From positions 1 through 36,451 of IMG/VR virus record IMGVR_UViG_3300025889_013646: a DNA stretch of 36,451 nucleotides; one strand, 5' to 3'. The stretch is from a virus. The notes beneath the pieces are model-generated. The model saw nothing but the letters and a program-made list of their open reading frames with translations. It was not told the origin of the DNA and made no database searches. Below are positions 9,328 through 23,108 of the stretch, piece by piece; within the stretch, counting starts at the first letter, position 1, and the number at the start of each line of letters is the position of its first letter. Position numbers and translations under genes: made by a program.

Positions 9328-9969
9328 ATGGCAGGCACTACTAAATACTTAATGGCGGAACAAGTCTTAATGAGGCTTGCTGGTGGTTATAGAGATAACA
9401 ACCAACCCGTTCAAATGGAAGATGTTGTAAAAGCAATTGAGCAAGTTGTTAATTCAACTTTTCAAATGCAATACTATTCTGCAACATTACCTACTGGTGA
9501 AACGATACCAGATAATTTAATGGTTGCGTTTTACGAAAATATACCTGTTTCTAGTTATGGAGATAAAGCTAAGGCCACATTGCCTGTAATGCCAATATCA
9601 CTTCCAAGAAATATGGGTGTGTATAGGGTTACTGATGATAATGATAATGATTACATACCTGTTCCATTAGGTCAAGGGGCTTTAATTAAAGCGGATAAGT
9701 TATTAAATGATTTATTAGGAAATGTTTGGTATGAATTAAGAAACTTTACTGTTGTTTTTTCTAAAGATATTACTCTTTTAGGAGTAACCTCAGTAAATAT
9801 GTATTTAGTAGTAATGGATATTTCTCTTTACTCAAATACAGACCCATTACCAATTCCTGCGGGGGCCGAAGATGAAATTATAGAAAAAGTATATGCTAAA
9901 TTCGCAATAGTTACACCAGAAACAGGAATAGTAGATAATTATAGCGCAGCAACAAATAAAATTAATTAA
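9328..9969 (+). CDS. Second neck/ring-like protein
   Basis: A 213-aa protein with no recognised domain: helical at 1-45 (LMAEQVLMRLAGGYRDNNQPVQMEDVVKAIEQVVN), then beta-rich (VMPISLPRNMGVYRV, YIPVPLGQGALIKAD). It starts two bases after the preceding stop and is nearly the same length as that protein, but I see no clear sequence likeness between them. Position between two other small structural genes suggests another ring, adaptor or stopper subunit of the neck. Confidence 0.5.
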   Translation: MAGTTKYLMAEQVLMRLAGGYRDNNQPVQMEDVVKAIEQVVNSTFQMQYYSATLPTGETIPDNLMVAFYENIPVSSYGDKAKATLPVMPISLPRNMGVYRVTDDNDNDYIPVPLGQGALIKADKLLNDLLGNVWYELRNFTVVFSKDITLLGVTSVNMYLVVMDISLYSNTDPLPIPAGAEDEIIEKVYAKFAIVTPETGIVDNYSAATNKIN

Positions 9970-16412: not shown

Positions 16413-19400
16413 ATGGCAGAAGAATTTGTAGACATAGAGCAAAATGGTGACCCATTAGGTATTCTTTCTAAAAAAACAGTTTCTCCTAAAGTTCAAGAAG
16501 CTGCTCCTGTAGATAGTGACCCATTGGGTATTTTAAAAAAAAAATCTACTCCTGTAGTATCTTCGGGTACACCATCACAATTACCAAGTCAGCCTGATTT
16601 TTTAAAGCAAGGGGCTTCATTAGCTGATAATAGTTTCTTAAAAGAGATTAGTAAGTCTATACCAAAAGGACCTGCTCAACCTGCTGCTCCTGAAGGAAAA
16701 TGGTCAAATATTGTTCAGAATGTATTTGCTAATTTTGAAAAAGCAGGAACAGATTTAGCCGCAAATGCCCTTACATTAGTTAAAGACTTATCTAAAAATC
16801 CTTATATTCCTGATGTATCTTCTGCTATGAAAGAAGTAGAAAAAAGTACAGGAAAGTCAGTCCCTACTCCGTGGGAGCTGGACCCTCTTGGTGGCGTAAT
16901 CAGAGGACTGCACGGTAATCAAGAAAGGATGCAGCAAGTTATTGCTAACAATCCTTTGCCTAATACATTTTGGGGTAAAGCCGTATCATCTGTTGCTAGT
17001 TTTGCTCCGGATATTGCAGCTACCGCATTATTGCCAGAAGCAAAATTATCGCAAGGAGCAAGTTTTTTAGCTAAAACCGGTAACTTATTATTTAATAATT
17101 TTACCAAATACATGATAGCTAAGGAAGGTTTAGCTGGATATGGTGAAGCTAGAAAGGAAGGTAAGGATATTGGTGAAGCTGCATTAGGAGGTGTTAAAGG
17201 TGCTGGTAAAGGAGCTGTGACCGGTATTGAACTAGCGCTTTTAGGAGCTGGAAGTAATTTAGCTACAAAATCAATAATGACTCAGGCTGAAAGAATAGGA
17301 TTAACCGGAGCAAAAGGTATGGCAGCTAAAGAACTCGTTAATTTGGGTACAGATGTTCTTGCTTATGGTGTAGTTAGTCCATTTGCTCACGCAACATTAG
17401 AGGGAAGGCCTTTAACTGGTGAGGAAATAGCTAATGGAACCGGTGTTGCAGCTTTATTTAGATTAAAAGGTGGATTAGAAAATATTAAATCTAATGCAGA
17501 ATTAAATAAGGCAATAAAAGAAACCTTAGCAATGAAGCAGGGTGTTGCTATTTCAAACTTTGTAGATGCGACTCCAGAAAGTATTGTTGAAGTTTATAAC
17601 TCAAAAGGAAGTGCAGATGAGCTTAATTTAAGAGCGTTAGAAGCTGCTAAAAAAGCAAAAGAAACAACTGATTTACAAAAGAAAGCTCAATATACTGCGG
17701 AGGCTGGTGTTCTTGGTAGAGCTGCTGGAGTTAAGCAGGTTGCCGACATGGTTATTAATAACAGAGATGGATTTGCTGAATTGAAGGCAAGTGACTTACC
17801 TGAGAGTGCTAAAAACGAATTTTTACAAAAAGCTGAGGAAATAAATAAACTTCTAAATCCATTTGAAAAAGCAAAGACAGATTTAGATAATAAAATAAAA
17901 GAATCAGAGGGTTTATTCTCTCAATTATCTCAACAAGCAGAACAATCTCAAGACCCAAATGAAAGAGCTCAACTTGAATCTCAGGCAAGAGAAGCAAAAG
18001 ATAGTGCAGAAAAATTTAGAAATGAATTAGCAGAAGTTAAGTTTAATCAAAATAGACCAGATGCTAATGCAGGTAAAGAACCTGTAATGGAAGGAGAGGT
18101 TACTCCTACGGAAGTTAAGATAACAGAAGAAGTTGAACCAATAAGACAATTGGGAACGGGAGCTAATGTTTATTTTGAAAATAATAAATATAGGGTTAAC
18201 GATAGTTCTAAAGGTAAAGTTCTATTAAACATAGAAGGTAAAGAAGAAGGCGGTATGGCTATTGCTAATATTGAATTTGACAGTCCAAAAGAAGCCGTAG
18301 AAGTAGCTAAGGAATTATCTAAAATATATCCCAACGGGGTTCCTGATGCTGTATTAATTGATAAGGTTGTAGATAATATTAGAAATAGAATTAAAGAAAG
18401 TATAACAGAAGAAGTTAAACCAACCGAAGTAAAGTCTATAGAGCAACTAAGAGCAGAAGAACAAGCCGAACTTGATTCTAAAATACCAAATGCAGAACAA
18501 TACAGAGTAGAAGGTAAGGTAGAAAGAGAAAAGTTAACTAATGAAGAAGATATAAAAGCTTTTGATGAAGTTTATAATAAATATGATAAGTTAATATCTC
18601 CTTTATTAAAAAAACCAGCGGAACAAAAAATAACAGTTGAATTATTATCATCTCAAGAGCCTCCTCAAAAAGAAGGTGAAACCATAGTTACTTTAAGTGG
18701 TAAAACAGAGGCAGAAAGATTATCTTCTATTGAGCAAAGACAAAAAGATACTAAGGTTTCAGATAAAGTAGTGTCAGATAATGAAATAGTTCAAGCTGCT
18801 GAGTCTTATTTTAAGAAAAGCGGAAACTATAAAAATAGTGCAGATGGGAGAGCTGAATTAAATAATTTAAGAATTAAGGCTAGGGAAAATGGATTAACAA
18901 TAGATACCGAAAGAGATGCTGTTACAAAGTTAAATAAAGCAGGCAGACCTAGAAAGGTTCTTTACAATAATAAGGCTGATGGCGAAGCTGTTGTTGAGCC
19001 AAATGCTAAAACTTTAAGAGATAGGGATATAAATACTCAAAAAGTATATGAAGAACTTACGGATTCTGGAGTATTTTTAGATGTTGAATCTGGGTCTGGA
19101 AAAAGAATGAGTGCTTCTCAAATAGAGGCAGCTATTAAAGATATTAATGAAGGTATACCAAGCAAGCGTGCTAATAAGTATTTAGATGCTTTAGAAAAAG
19201 GTATTGCAGAAGATGCCTTTCCTTTATACGATAAAGGTATGGGAGGATTTGCTCCTAAATTGGCTGATATTAGAGCTCAATTAGGTGTTGAAAAAGAAGT
19301 AGTTGGAGAGCCAATGGATGAGGCTGCATTAAATAAATTCTTAGATGAAGAATCAAAACTTACCCCTGAAGAAGAACAAGACCTATTAGATAACGTAGAA

Positions 19401-22400
19401 AATTTACTTTATGAATACGAAACAACAGAAGCAGGACCTGAAGGAAAGGTTCAACCAATTGAAGCCGGAGCAAAAGAAGGAGTTCCTTCAGAGGCTAAAC
19501 CGACTGAACCTACTAAAAGCGAAAGACAGGCAGAATATGAAAAAATAAAATCTAATAAAAAGAAAAAGGATTTTGTAAGAAATAATCTACCTGAAGAATT
19601 TAAGCCATTGGCAGATGAATTAACAGAAGCCCAAATGTCTGAAATAGTAGATAGTAATTTTGATTCAAAAACAATTAAAAATATACAAGATGCCATACAA
19701 AAGCAAAGCGCAGCAGAAGTACTTCAACCTAAACAGGAAGAAGTTGGAGGCACAGGGGGTGGACGTGAACGAGTGGAACAAGGAAAGCAAGGGTATGAGT
19801 CTACCGGAGAAGGCAAAGCAAAAGTCGCAGAAGAAGCACAACCCAAGGGTTCTGAGAAAGTAGAGGTAGAAAAAATTAAAACTAATGATAAATCAATCTT
19901 AAACAGAATAAATAGTAGTGAAAATATACCAGATTCTGTAAAAGAGAAATTTAAAGACAATTTAAGATACGAAGTAAAAAGTAAGGAAGAAGCTAAAATT
20001 ATTGCTAAAAACATAATTAAAGAATATGGCACAAATGATGCTGTTACACTAGCCGAAGCCAATAAGTTTCACGGAGATGTAAATTCTTTTATATTTAGTG
20101 AAGCTATAAATGATACTTATGTTAAGGAAACCGAAGCTAAAACACCAGAGGAAAAATTAAAGTATGCTGAACAATGGGCTGATTACGCAATTAGATTTGA
20201 CGAGTCAGCTAGGTCTAAGGGTAGGTTCATATCTGCGATTTCAGATTTCTACAAAAAATCACCTTTAGGTATAAAATTTGTAGAAAACGAAAGAAGAAGC
20301 GAAGATTTTAAGAAATGGTATAAGGCCAAAGAGGGTTCGTATAAAGAGGTGTTTGATGAATTGGTTCAAGACCCTAAGTTTAAATCTTTGATTGGTGAAG
20401 AAGTTCAAAAAGGACTAAAAGAAGAAAGAGCAGCTCAAAGACAAGCAAACAGAAAGAAAATTGAAGATTTCTTTGAAAATGCTAAATTAAAAGGAAATAA
20501 TTTATATGCAGTACCTATTCCTCCTAAAGTTATTAATGGAGCATTAGAAATAATGAAACAATCTGTATTAGCAGGGGAAAGTGTAGTTTATTCTGTAAAT
20601 AAAGCTATTGAGCACATATCTAAAGAAGTAAAAGACTGGGATAAGGAAAAGTTCAGAAAAGAGTATGAAACAAAATTATCTTCAATTGAAGGTAAATCTG
20701 GTAAAACAGAAAAAGAAGAACTTCCTGAAGATGCTAAAAATAGAATACTTGATAAATTTAGGAAAAAATTAAAGGGTCTTAATGAAAGTCAAAAAGAGCA
20801 AGTAATTAGAAGGTCATTTAAACAACTTGTTGAAAATGGAGCCTTAGAATATAATGACTTCAAAAAAATTATTTCTGAAACAATTGGATATGGTGAAATT
20901 ACTCCAGAAGAAGCTGCAAAAATAACTAAGCTTGTTAATGATATTAATTCAGTTGATGAATTAGCATCATCAATAAGAGATGAGGGGAATAGAAGTGAGG
21001 CAAATCTATTAAAATACCAAAAGGCGAAAAAAGAAGCTGAAAAGTCGGCTACTGAATTAAATAAGATGGTATATAATAAGACTAATATATCTAATAGATT
21101 ATTGTCTATTATGCAATTAAATACATTAGGTATACCTTCTTTGGTAAATAACCCTATTTTCAATATATGGAATCAGGCAACCGTAAGGTTCCCAAATGCT
21201 GTTTCTATGACAGTATTAGACCAAATTTTATATGGAGGAAGTAAAGTTTCTAATAAACTATTTGGAACAGGTATTTTATTACCAGAAAACAATGTGCTTA
21301 CTTCACAAAAAGAATTTTTTAAAAAAGGATTACAAGGAGGTAAACTTTCAGCAGAACAATTATTTACAGGATTAACCAATAGGGATTATTTCCAAAAAGA
21401 AATATATAGCTCTCAGATTCATCCATTTACATCTATTAAGGATTTATGGGATTGGAAATTTAAAGGTAAGAATTTAACTCCGGCTCAGGTTGCCGACAAA
21501 TCAATACAGGCAACAGTAGGTTTACCTGCTGAGATAGTAGCTAGGGCTTTGAATATTGGTGATAAACCTCAAAGATTTGCAGCAGAAGGTGCTCAGGCAT
21601 CAGTATTTGCTAAAAACCTTGGATTAAAAGATATTGATTATGAATATTTCTTAGAATTTCCAAAAGAAGAAGCTTATCGAGCTTTTAAAAGACAAGGTTT
21701 TTCTGATGATGTTGCAATGAAAAAAGCAGAAGAAATACAAGAAAGAATTATTAAACAAGGAGAAGAATCTACATTCCAGCAAGATAATTTATTAAATGAT
21801 GCGGTAAATTCAGCATTTAAAGTATTCGGAACACCCGGTGAGATTTTTAAGAAGTTTAATATGCCTTATCTTAAAATACCTTTAAATGCATTTTGGTCTG
21901 TTTATAATTTAGTTAATCCAGAAGTCGCCTTTTTACAGTCTGCGGTATATGGAACAAAAGCCATAAAATCAGGTTCATCATTAGATATTCAGCAATCAAA
22001 AAAATGGTTTGCTCACGGAGTTACAGGTATTGCATTAACCGGTGTTGCCGGAGCATTGGCTTCAAACGGAATAGTAAATTCTAATAACGCAGATGATACA
22101 ACTAAAAAAGAGAGAATAGGAGAAAAAACCTATGAACAACAAAATAGTATTAATGTAACTAAATTAAATGCATATTTAAGAGGAGAAAATCCTGATGATG
22201 TTAAAAATAGTTTAAATGTTGATTTAAAATGGTTTGGTAATGTTGGTAATATACTTAATGTAGAGTCAAGAAAGCTAGAAGAAATGACACCAGAGCAAAG
22301 AAAAAATGGTATGTCATATATGGAAGATATGTTCTCTAGTATGAAAATATCTAGTATTGAGTTAATAGAAAATGGAGTATTTTCAAATACATCTGGTTTG

Positions 22401-23108
22401 TTAACAGCAATAGATAGGGGCGGAAATTTTGCTGATGCCTATGTATTGAATTTAATAAATATGGGAACAAATATTGTTCAACCTGCAATGTTTGCTCAAA
22501 TGTCAAGGGCTGAATTGCCGTACTATTCTCAGCAAAAAGCTGATACTTTTATGGAGCAATTAAAAAACAATTTACTTACTAGGTCATCAACATTAAGAGC
22601 TTTATCTGGAAAATACCCTCCTTCTCAAATAGGAGTATGGGGAGATAAGTTAGATAGAAAAGATAATATAGCAATGAAGTTGTTTGGAATAAGTTCTAAT
22701 AACAATGATAATTTTGCGCAACCCATATATAATGATTATAAAAAAACAGATAATACTGCATTTTTACCTCCATCAGTAAAACCAGAAGTTAACGGTTTTA
22801 AATTAAATACATCTGAGGCTAATAAATTAGAGATATTAGTTGGTCAAGCTAGAAAGAATTTGGTTGCCCCATTTGTAAATGATGGAGCTAAACTTAGTGG
22901 TTTTAAAGATAGGTATAGTAAATTATCTGAAGAAGATAAGGTAAAAGCATTGGGTATTATATATAAAATGGGATACCAAGTTGGAGAAAAGCAATTTACT
23001 GACTTATACCCGCAATTTTATAAATCAGATAAAAAAACACCTGAACAAAAGAAAGAGTCTAAGGAGAGTTCAATTTTTAGAAAATCATTAAAAAAGTTTA
23101 TTAGATGA
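16413..23108 (+). CDS. Giant internal virion/ejection-like protein, 2231 aa
   Basis: The largest protein of the window. The N-terminus carries a repeated short motif DPLGIL(S/K)KK at residues 13-21 and 36-44. Residues about 170-330 hold Ala/Gly-rich hydrophobic segments, about 400-1150 Lys/Glu-rich, coiled-coil and linker stretches, about 1150-1560 further charged helices, and about 1560-1900 a more hydrophobic, aromatic part that includes GVTGIALTGVAGALASNGIV, a likely membrane span. This plan fits large podovirus core proteins (T7 gp16-like size or LPD-type polyvalent proteins) ejected with DNA. I saw no transglycosylase or polymerase motif. A ten-A homopolymer (16535-16544) and a possible overprinted gene (19690-19863) lie within it. 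Confidence 0.65.
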   Translation: MAEEFVDIEQNGDPLGILSKKTVSPKVQEAAPVDSDPLGILKKKSTPVVSSGTPSQLPSQPDFLKQGASLADNSFLKEISKSIPKGPAQPAAPEGKWSNIVQNVFANFEKAGTDLAANALTLVKDLSKNPYIPDVSSAMKEVEKSTGKSVPTPWELDPLGGVIRGLHGNQERMQQVIANNPLPNTFWGKAVSSVASFAPDIAATALLPEAKLSQGASFLAKTGNLLFNNFTKYMIAKEGLAGYGEARKEGKDIGEAALGGVKGAGKGAVTGIELALLGAGSNLATKSIMTQAERIGLTGAKGMAAKELVNLGTDVLAYGVVSPFAHATLEGRPLTGEEIANGTGVAALFRLKGGLENIKSNAELNKAIKETLAMKQGVAISNFVDATPESIVEVYNSKGSADELNLRALEAAKKAKETTDLQKKAQYTAEAGVLGRAAGVKQVADMVINNRDGFAELKASDLPESAKNEFLQKAEEINKLLNPFEKAKTDLDNKIKESEGLFSQLSQQAEQSQDPNERAQLESQAREAKDSAEKFRNELAEVKFNQNRPDANAGKEPVMEGEVTPTEVKITEEVEPIRQLGTGANVYFENNKYRVNDSSKGKVLLNIEGKEEGGMAIANIEFDSPKEAVEVAKELSKIYPNGVPDAVLIDKVVDNIRNRIKESITEEVKPTEVKSIEQLRAEEQAELDSKIPNAEQYRVEGKVEREKLTNEEDIKAFDEVYNKYDKLISPLLKKPAEQKITVELLSSQEPPQKEGETIVTLSGKTEAERLSSIEQRQKDTKVSDKVVSDNEIVQAAESYFKKSGNYKNSADGRAELNNLRIKARENGLTIDTERDAVTKLNKAGRPRKVLYNNKADGEAVVEPNAKTLRDRDINTQKVYEELTDSGVFLDVESGSGKRMSASQIEAAIKDINEGIPSKRANKYLDALEKGIAEDAFPLYDKGMGGFAPKLADIRAQLGVEKEVVGEPMDEAALNKFLDEESKLTPEEEQDLLDNVENLLYEYETTEAGPEGKVQPIEAGAKEGVPSEAKPTEPTKSERQAEYEKIKSNKKKKDFVRNNLPEEFKPLADELTEAQMSEIVDSNFDSKTIKNIQDAIQKQSAAEVLQPKQEEVGGTGGGRERVEQGKQGYESTGEGKAKVAEEAQPKGSEKVEVEKIKTNDKSILNRINSSENIPDSVKEKFKDNLRYEVKSKEEAKIIAKNIIKEYGTNDAVTLAEANKFHGDVNSFIFSEAINDTYVKETEAKTPEEKLKYAEQWADYAIRFDESARSKGRFISAISDFYKKSPLGIKFVENERRSEDFKKWYKAKEGSYKEVFDELVQDPKFKSLIGEEVQKGLKEERAAQRQANRKKIEDFFENAKLKGNNLYAVPIPPKVINGALEIMKQSVLAGESVVYSVNKAIEHISKEVKDWDKEKFRKEYETKLSSIEGKSGKTEKEELPEDAKNRILDKFRKKLKGLNESQKEQVIRRSFKQLVENGALEYNDFKKIISETIGYGEITPEEAAKITKLVNDINSVDELASSIRDEGNRSEANLLKYQKAKKEAEKSATELNKMVYNKTNISNRLLSIMQLNTLGIPSLVNNPIFNIWNQATVRFPNAVSMTVLDQILYGGSKVSNKLFGTGILLPENNVLTSQKEFFKKGLQGGKLSAEQLFTGLTNRDYFQKEIYSSQIHPFTSIKDLWDWKFKGKNLTPAQVADKSIQATVGLPAEIVARALNIGDKPQRFAAEGAQASVFAKNLGLKDIDYEYFLEFPKEEAYRAFKRQGFSDDVAMKKAEEIQERIIKQGEESTFQQDNLLNDAVNSAFKVFGTPGEIFKKFNMPYLKIPLNAFWSVYNLVNPEVAFLQSAVYGTKAIKSGSSLDIQQSKKWFAHGVTGIALTGVAGALASNGIVNSNNADDTTKKERIGEKTYEQQNSINVTKLNAYLRGENPDDVKNSLNVDLKWFGNVGNILNVESRKLEEMTPEQRKNGMSYMEDMFSSMKISSIELIENGVFSNTSGLLTAIDRGGNFADAYVLNLINMGTNIVQPAMFAQMSRAELPYYSQQKADTFMEQLKNNLLTRSSTLRALSGKYPPSQIGVWGDKLDRKDNIAMKLFGISSNNNDNFAQPIYNDYKKTDNTAFLPPSVKPEVNGFKLNTSEANKLEILVGQARKNLVAPFVNDGAKLSGFKDRYSKLSEEDKVKALGIIYKMGYQVGEKQFTDLYPQFYKSDKKTPEQKKESKESSIFRKSLKKFIR
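19690..19863 (+). CDS. Possible overprinted 57-aa gene inside the 2231-aa gene
   Basis: In the +1 frame relative to the big gene, a frame starting MPYKSKAQQKYFN runs for 57 residues to TAG. It has aromatic residues, an internal GVDVNEWNKESKG motif and a Lys/Arg-rich tail. It resembles small phage proteins starting MP(Y/F)KSKAQ that I remember, though I could not check. The big gene's own frame here is low-complexity Glu/Gly/Gln linker. By hand count the segment is 85 of 174 G+C (49%), against 22-30% in two flanking 60-base pieces, but another linker piece at 19441-19500 also reaches 45%. Of the 57 codons, 43 end in G or C, unlike the rest of the phage. An upstream ATG at 19660 extends it by ten residues; I prefer 19690. 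Confidence 0.45.
   Translation: MPYKSKAQQKYFNLNRKKLEAQGVDVNEWNKESKGMSLPEKAKQKSQKKHNPRVLRK

Follow-up and report, generated by a model that had tools for sequence, protein, structure and literature searches.

Among phages, fully nested genes are known from phiX174, in which E lies within D and K within A/C, and from lambda, in which Rz1 lies within Rz; such genes are usually viewed as newly arisen frames in pre-existing genes. Overprinting has been described as a form of de novo gene birth, in which a novel frame arises within an older gene (PMC8227390). Polyvalent proteins of phages are very large, multidomain proteins whose genes adjoin virion genes (Iyer et al. 2017, PMC5512222); the word "overlap" was not found in the main text of that paper.

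The sequence studied here (the window) is IMG/VR record IMGVR_UViG_3300025889_013646, positions 1–36,451, a 36,451-nucleotide stretch of DNA from an uncultivated virus. It contains a 57-codon gene nested in a much longer one, and the following features are referred to below:

16413..23108, + strand: giant host gene (2231 aa), mosaic in structure, with G1-like, linker, and G2-like parts
19411..19548, + strand: second embedded frame (small2), 45 aa (MNTKQQKQDLKERFNQLKPEQKKEFLQRLNRL...), an ATG frame in the same register as the 57-aa gene
19515..19723, + strand: helical, conserved G1 end of the giant, residues 1035–1103, mostly predicted with pLDDT 92–94
19690..19863, + strand: embedded small gene (MPYKSKAQ family, 57 aa), in the +1 frame of the giant 16413–23108
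19722..19889, + strand: giant-frame linker, residues 1104–1159, predicted to be disordered (pLDDT ~30)
19868, + strand: position beyond which the giants of L084, L086, and L087 are no longer homologous at the DNA level, which is the stop codon of their small genes

The small gene runs from an ATG at 19690 to a TAG at 19861–19863 (57 codons) and lies wholly within the giant, such that position 3 of the small-frame codons is position 1 of the giant codons. The G+C content is 49.1% in the segment and 33.1% in the giant, and G or C occupies 43 of the 57 third positions of the small frame; the position, length, frame, and composition reported by a first-pass annotation of this DNA were thus reproduced when recomputed. 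ORF length was dropped as evidence for a gene, since 46% of synonymous-codon shuffles of the giant contained an ATG ORF as long as 57 codons or longer in the +1 frame (none did in the +2 frame); the mean longest ORF in these giant-preserving shuffles was 54 codons in the +1 frame and 21 codons in the +2 frame. The +1 frame is therefore the naturally open alternative frame of giants, which partly explains why all nested copies described below occupy it. What exceeds chance is the homology of the small frame and the selection acting on it, not its length.

The small gene family and its giant host

The scan of IMG/VR with the 57-aa protein, a search proposed in the first-pass annotation, recovered relatives with clear identity along the full length, and a profile scan of viral contigs recovered at least 323 family relatives (homologue data comprised IMG/VR contigs and MAG contigs, and locus-scan E-values refer to the candidate stretches). 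The family consensus is MPYKSKAQ..YFN....LE.QGV.V.EWN..SKG..LP; the window's small protein matches the conserved core M1–P39 of the family profile, including the invariant residues (E ~1e-29), and embedded copies in general retain the family-invariant residues. Among 132 distinct copies, 30 lie wholly inside a same-strand giant ORF (862–3729 aa), with a single frame relation throughout, and the remaining copies are stand-alone or form the N-terminal domain of a longer protein. About 100 distinct stand-alone copies have their own start and their own stop, so that the stand-alone homologues looked for as support for a true gene exist in large numbers. In relatives with a nested copy, both frames are open across the entire overlap; no antisense nesting was found among ORFs of at least 250 aa. 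These homologues indicate that the small gene belongs to an undescribed, widespread phage gene family whose members are mostly stand-alone. The papers searched included no text containing "MPYKSKAQ" and no account of such nesting, and the cultured-phage collection contained no relative of the small protein; a VP4B match from cultured phages (E = 1) was discarded because it sits in a longer ORF. Searches of Pfam, PHROGs, NCBIfam, and PDB sequences gave no convincing match for the 57-aa protein, and single family members gave scattered weak matches in Pfam, PHROGs, and NCBIfam.

Stand-alone copies are mostly found in the virion module (the terL–portal–capsid region), near head genes. The small gene is located between terL and portal in L063, downstream of terL and portal in L026, L032, L043, and L060, and about 11 nt downstream of a G2-type giant in L016, L031, and L190 (12 nt in L190). 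Going by position, the small protein could conceivably be a late virion-assembly or ejection factor that acts with head, portal, or ejected polyvalent proteins; this is the most tentative of our proposals. In seven other contigs (L039, L123, L141, L162, L165, L171, and L104), the MPYKSKAQ domain is N-terminal in longer proteins of ~210–640 aa, several of them on very large phage contigs, and has the look of a binding or targeting module. Some family members are carried by bacterial MAG contigs; two with nested copies (L097 and L110) fall in Acidobacteriota bins, and some other relatives fall in Bacteroidota bins. One copy per phage was found in 48 of 48 records, a biased sample in that all were fetched via the small gene. 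Five new records fetched via the giant alone included one with an embedded copy, one with a stand-alone copy, one with only a 14-residue match, and two with none; giant-fetched records can thus lack the small gene, and "exactly one copy in every phage" was replaced by "at most one".

The giant sits between virion structural genes and terL. Its G1-like part extends to about codon 1093; the linker, formed by the embedded gene, and the G2-like part come next. Relatives carrying the small gene have LPD38, ART-PolyVal, RNA ligase, RelA_SpoT, and His_Phos (phosphatase) domains, although no Pfam family matched the window's giant itself; this giant probably belongs to the virion module as a protein of polyvalent type. 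One relative from an Acidobacteria bin encodes a 3104-aa giant with a nested small gene (L097, 4244–13555) and matches to 2′-5′ RNA ligase, RelA/SpoT-like, and Acb1-like (anti-CBASS) proteins. In the window, the helical G1 end lies immediately upstream of the embedded gene and extends over its start, and the predicted disordered linker is nearly coextensive with that gene; the giant frame has a recurring Q..G.GG.R motif. The small protein is modelled as three short helices with a confident core at residues 1–30 (pLDDT ~91). No match with E < 0.001 to this model was found among PDB and BFVD folds; the best BFVD match, an uncharacterised phage protein (E = 0.12), was not convincing. The overlap is thus predicted to be folded as read in the small frame and tolerant as read in the giant frame, which fits the earlier description of the giant's segment as a tolerant linker.

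Selection on the two reading frames

When the window and six close relatives were compared, only 6 of 122 pairwise differences in the overlap fell at giant codon position 3 and 74 fell at small-frame position 3; in the 150-base upstream flank, 71 of 105 pairwise differences were at giant codon position 3. Of 14 differences in four near-independent pairs, 12 were silent in the small frame and changed the giant (2.3 expected); a broader set of ten pairs, which included very divergent ones, showed a weaker effect in the same direction (45 of 92 such changes, as compared to 15.8 expected). A blind scan of all 2231 giant codons found only two places where position 3 is the conserved one, namely codons 1076–1145, which correspond to the small gene (third-position rate down to 0.007, as compared to 0.38 overall), and codons 986–1045, which correspond to the second embedded frame. 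Across relatives, third positions of the small frame vary freely, second positions are frozen, and the start and stop are kept; stand-alone homologues use different codons for the same amino acids. None of the close relatives has a stop in the small frame; such stops had been named in advance as evidence against a gene. The substitutions in close relatives, the codon-level check suggested at the outset, show that purifying selection acts on the small frame and that the giant frame over the overlap mainly has to stay open. When the window's giant codons were resampled with its protein fixed, the small-frame profile score had a mean of 16 bits and a maximum of 39 bits, as compared to 94 bits for the real sequence; the same resampling in 16 lineages gave means of 0–18 bits against observed scores of 72–97 bits. 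Judged by these comparisons, the inner frame is selected beyond what the outer frame explains, as expected of a nested gene.

The second embedded frame, small2, has relatives on ~10 other phage contigs, always nested in a G1-type giant and in the same register, and shows the same inverted substitution pattern, its protein being conserved while the giant frame changes; no stand-alone copy was found in homologue searches. A GC-rich piece at 19441–19500 had been held against the proposal of a nested gene; it falls within small2 and, as part of a second embedded frame with the same selection signature, does not count against it. The blind scan gave no such pattern for a third, similarly long +1 ORF (21232–21375), which represents a negative control. 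As far as these patterns indicate, small2 fits the direction of classical overprinting, unlike the 57-aa gene.

Embedded copies in AT-rich genomes had a GC3 of 0.76 and a T3 of 0.015, as compared to a GC3 of 0.36 and a T3 of 0.25 in stand-alone copies; of 101 stand-alone copies, only 2 are free of stops in the giant's frame. The embedded segment is GC-rich because T is avoided at small-frame position 3 (i.e., giant position 1), which keeps the giant open, and the Glu/Gly/Gln-rich linker is therefore the small gene's DNA as read in the giant frame. In GC-rich lineages, the internal ATG is preceded by a Shine-Dalgarno motif stronger than those of most internal ATGs of the same giant (combined p = 0.003 over five lineages); for example, an AAGGAGG precedes the internal ATG in L089 and is equalled at none of 84 other internal ATGs. 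Small-gene starts lie in weakly structured RNA across 16 lineages (combined p = 1.7e-6), and in L090, where the usual ATG is gone, an ATG is present one codon downstream instead. These start-site features are signs, short of proof, that the small protein is translated. In the AT-rich lineages, including the window, no Shine-Dalgarno motif is present upstream of the small-gene start, which counts against the explanation favoured below; this absence in an AT-rich genome, together with relatives in Bacteroidota bins, suggests that the host of the window phage belongs to the Bacteroidota.

Two explanations would dispense with a selected small protein. The segment could be conserved as DNA or RNA, for example, as a recombination anchor, a packaging site, or an RNA signal, given that its DNA conservation is very high and that modules are exchanged at its edge; however, conservation tracks the codons of the small frame (position 3 free, position 2 frozen), and stand-alone homologues encode the same amino acids by other codons with start and stop kept, which makes this explanation very improbable. 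It is even harder to credit that the giant-frame linker is the selected product and the small frame a chance by-product. Although ORF length is non-significant in the +1 frame and the giant frame does have its recurring motif, changes to the giant frame dominate (those 12 of 14 differences in the near-independent pairs), fixing the giant protein and resampling its codons destroys the small-frame match, and stand-alone homologues occur where there is no giant frame.

Origin of the nested arrangement

Giants with a nested small gene occur in about a dozen to about 16 divergent phage lineages, and the frame relation is the same in all of them. The first half of the window's giant matches separate G1 genes of L146 and L181, and the G1 C-terminal motif (..VDKNFDSIIKQL..) lies directly upstream of the embedded gene in the window. 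The C-terminal halves of other nested giants (L117, L139, and L095) match G2 giants, separate or fused, of L031, L024, and L190, which lie upstream of a stand-alone small gene. L181 encodes G1 and G2 separately, and its small gene is nested within G2, close to the N-terminus; the arrangement in L065 is similar. Between G1 and G2, L181 also has a gene of ~165 aa (9362–9859) with a ferritin-type four-helix look, and a gene of similar length occupies this position in L146 and L031. Fusion with an empty site is represented by L190, whose giant aligns to that of L091 on both sides and has ~100 residues missing. Beyond 19868, the close relatives L084, L086, and L087 have unrelated G2 modules as C-terminal halves, joined exactly where the nested gene ends. 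On the family tree, the nested/stand-alone label switches 15 times, at least six of them on well-supported branches; the tree has only ~45 columns, and the number of embedding events is hence uncertain. A locus with the exact presumed ancestral order, G1–stand-alone small gene–G2, was not found among the relatives, which counts against the explanation that follows.

The sequence comparisons show that an independently selected small gene lies inside the giant; the favoured explanation, very probable in our view, is that the giant was fused across this neighbouring gene, with both products presumably still made. The small gene would originally have been located at the gene boundary between G1 and G2; the G1 ORF, with the N-terminal linker of its neighbour G2, may then have been extended and fused across it, with silent third-position changes (loss of T) clearing stops from the giant's frame. 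The overlap region would thereby have become the disordered Glu/Gly/Gln linker of the giant, and the small protein would be made by internal initiation on the giant's late mRNA. The first-pass annotation had suggested a small gene that entered a linker and is read in two frames; its nested, selected gene stands, and its "entered" is probably better replaced by fusion across the gene, because the small gene sits at a G1/G2 module junction. The rival reading, insertion as a recombination cassette into the linker of a giant that had been fused beforehand, is on balance doubtful. It would account for the comparison of L190 and L091, in which the same giant is present on both sides, ~100 residues are absent, and the gene is elsewhere in L190, as well as for the conserved block in the window's group (~19490/19532–19868), which resembles a moving module, and for the at least six label switches on the tree. 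However, the gene lies where G1 meets G2 or, as in L181 and L065, close to the G2 N-terminus, beside the G1 C-terminal motif, as expected for an old boundary, and an incoming copy would need a stop-free giant frame, for which only those two of the 101 stand-alone copies qualify.

Comparison with known nested genes

The history of this arrangement can be read from relatives: the gene stands by itself in some, is nested in others either close to the start of a giant or midway along a fused one, and is absent from an empty site in another. These relatives offer many cases, comparable with one another, in which an established gene became nested, and thus a natural test of how genes share DNA; they also show what the code demands of nesting, namely loss of T at third positions and a disordered linker in the other frame. 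The findings suggest that gene callers miss a conserved phage gene when it is nested, and suggest a simple screen for third-position conservation in giant phage genes, by which a second nested gene was found at the first try. More broadly, and only just short of what we would call probable, the family may repeatedly move between stand-alone and nested life in polyvalent giants, in which case the nested gene would mark a joint of module exchange and, if the phage needs the small gene, tie the giant's frame to its own survival; small2 would then point to a general habit.

As in polyvalent proteins (PMC5512222), the giant is very large and lies beside virion genes, and polyvalent domains occur in relatives carrying the small gene; unlike those proteins, the window's giant has no Pfam match. 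As in overprinting (PMC8227390), there are two functional frames, one tolerant or disordered and one constrained; unlike in overprinting, the small gene has stand-alone homologues and it is the giant's frame that looks newer, so that the 57-aa gene differs from classical overprinting, in which any homologues of the inner protein are confined to the overlap. Like the nested genes of phiX174 and lambda, the small protein is encoded in another frame of a longer gene, with both frames selected. However, while those nested genes are bound to one host gene, the small gene described here belongs to a mostly stand-alone family and is nested in giants of many lineages, always in the same frame.
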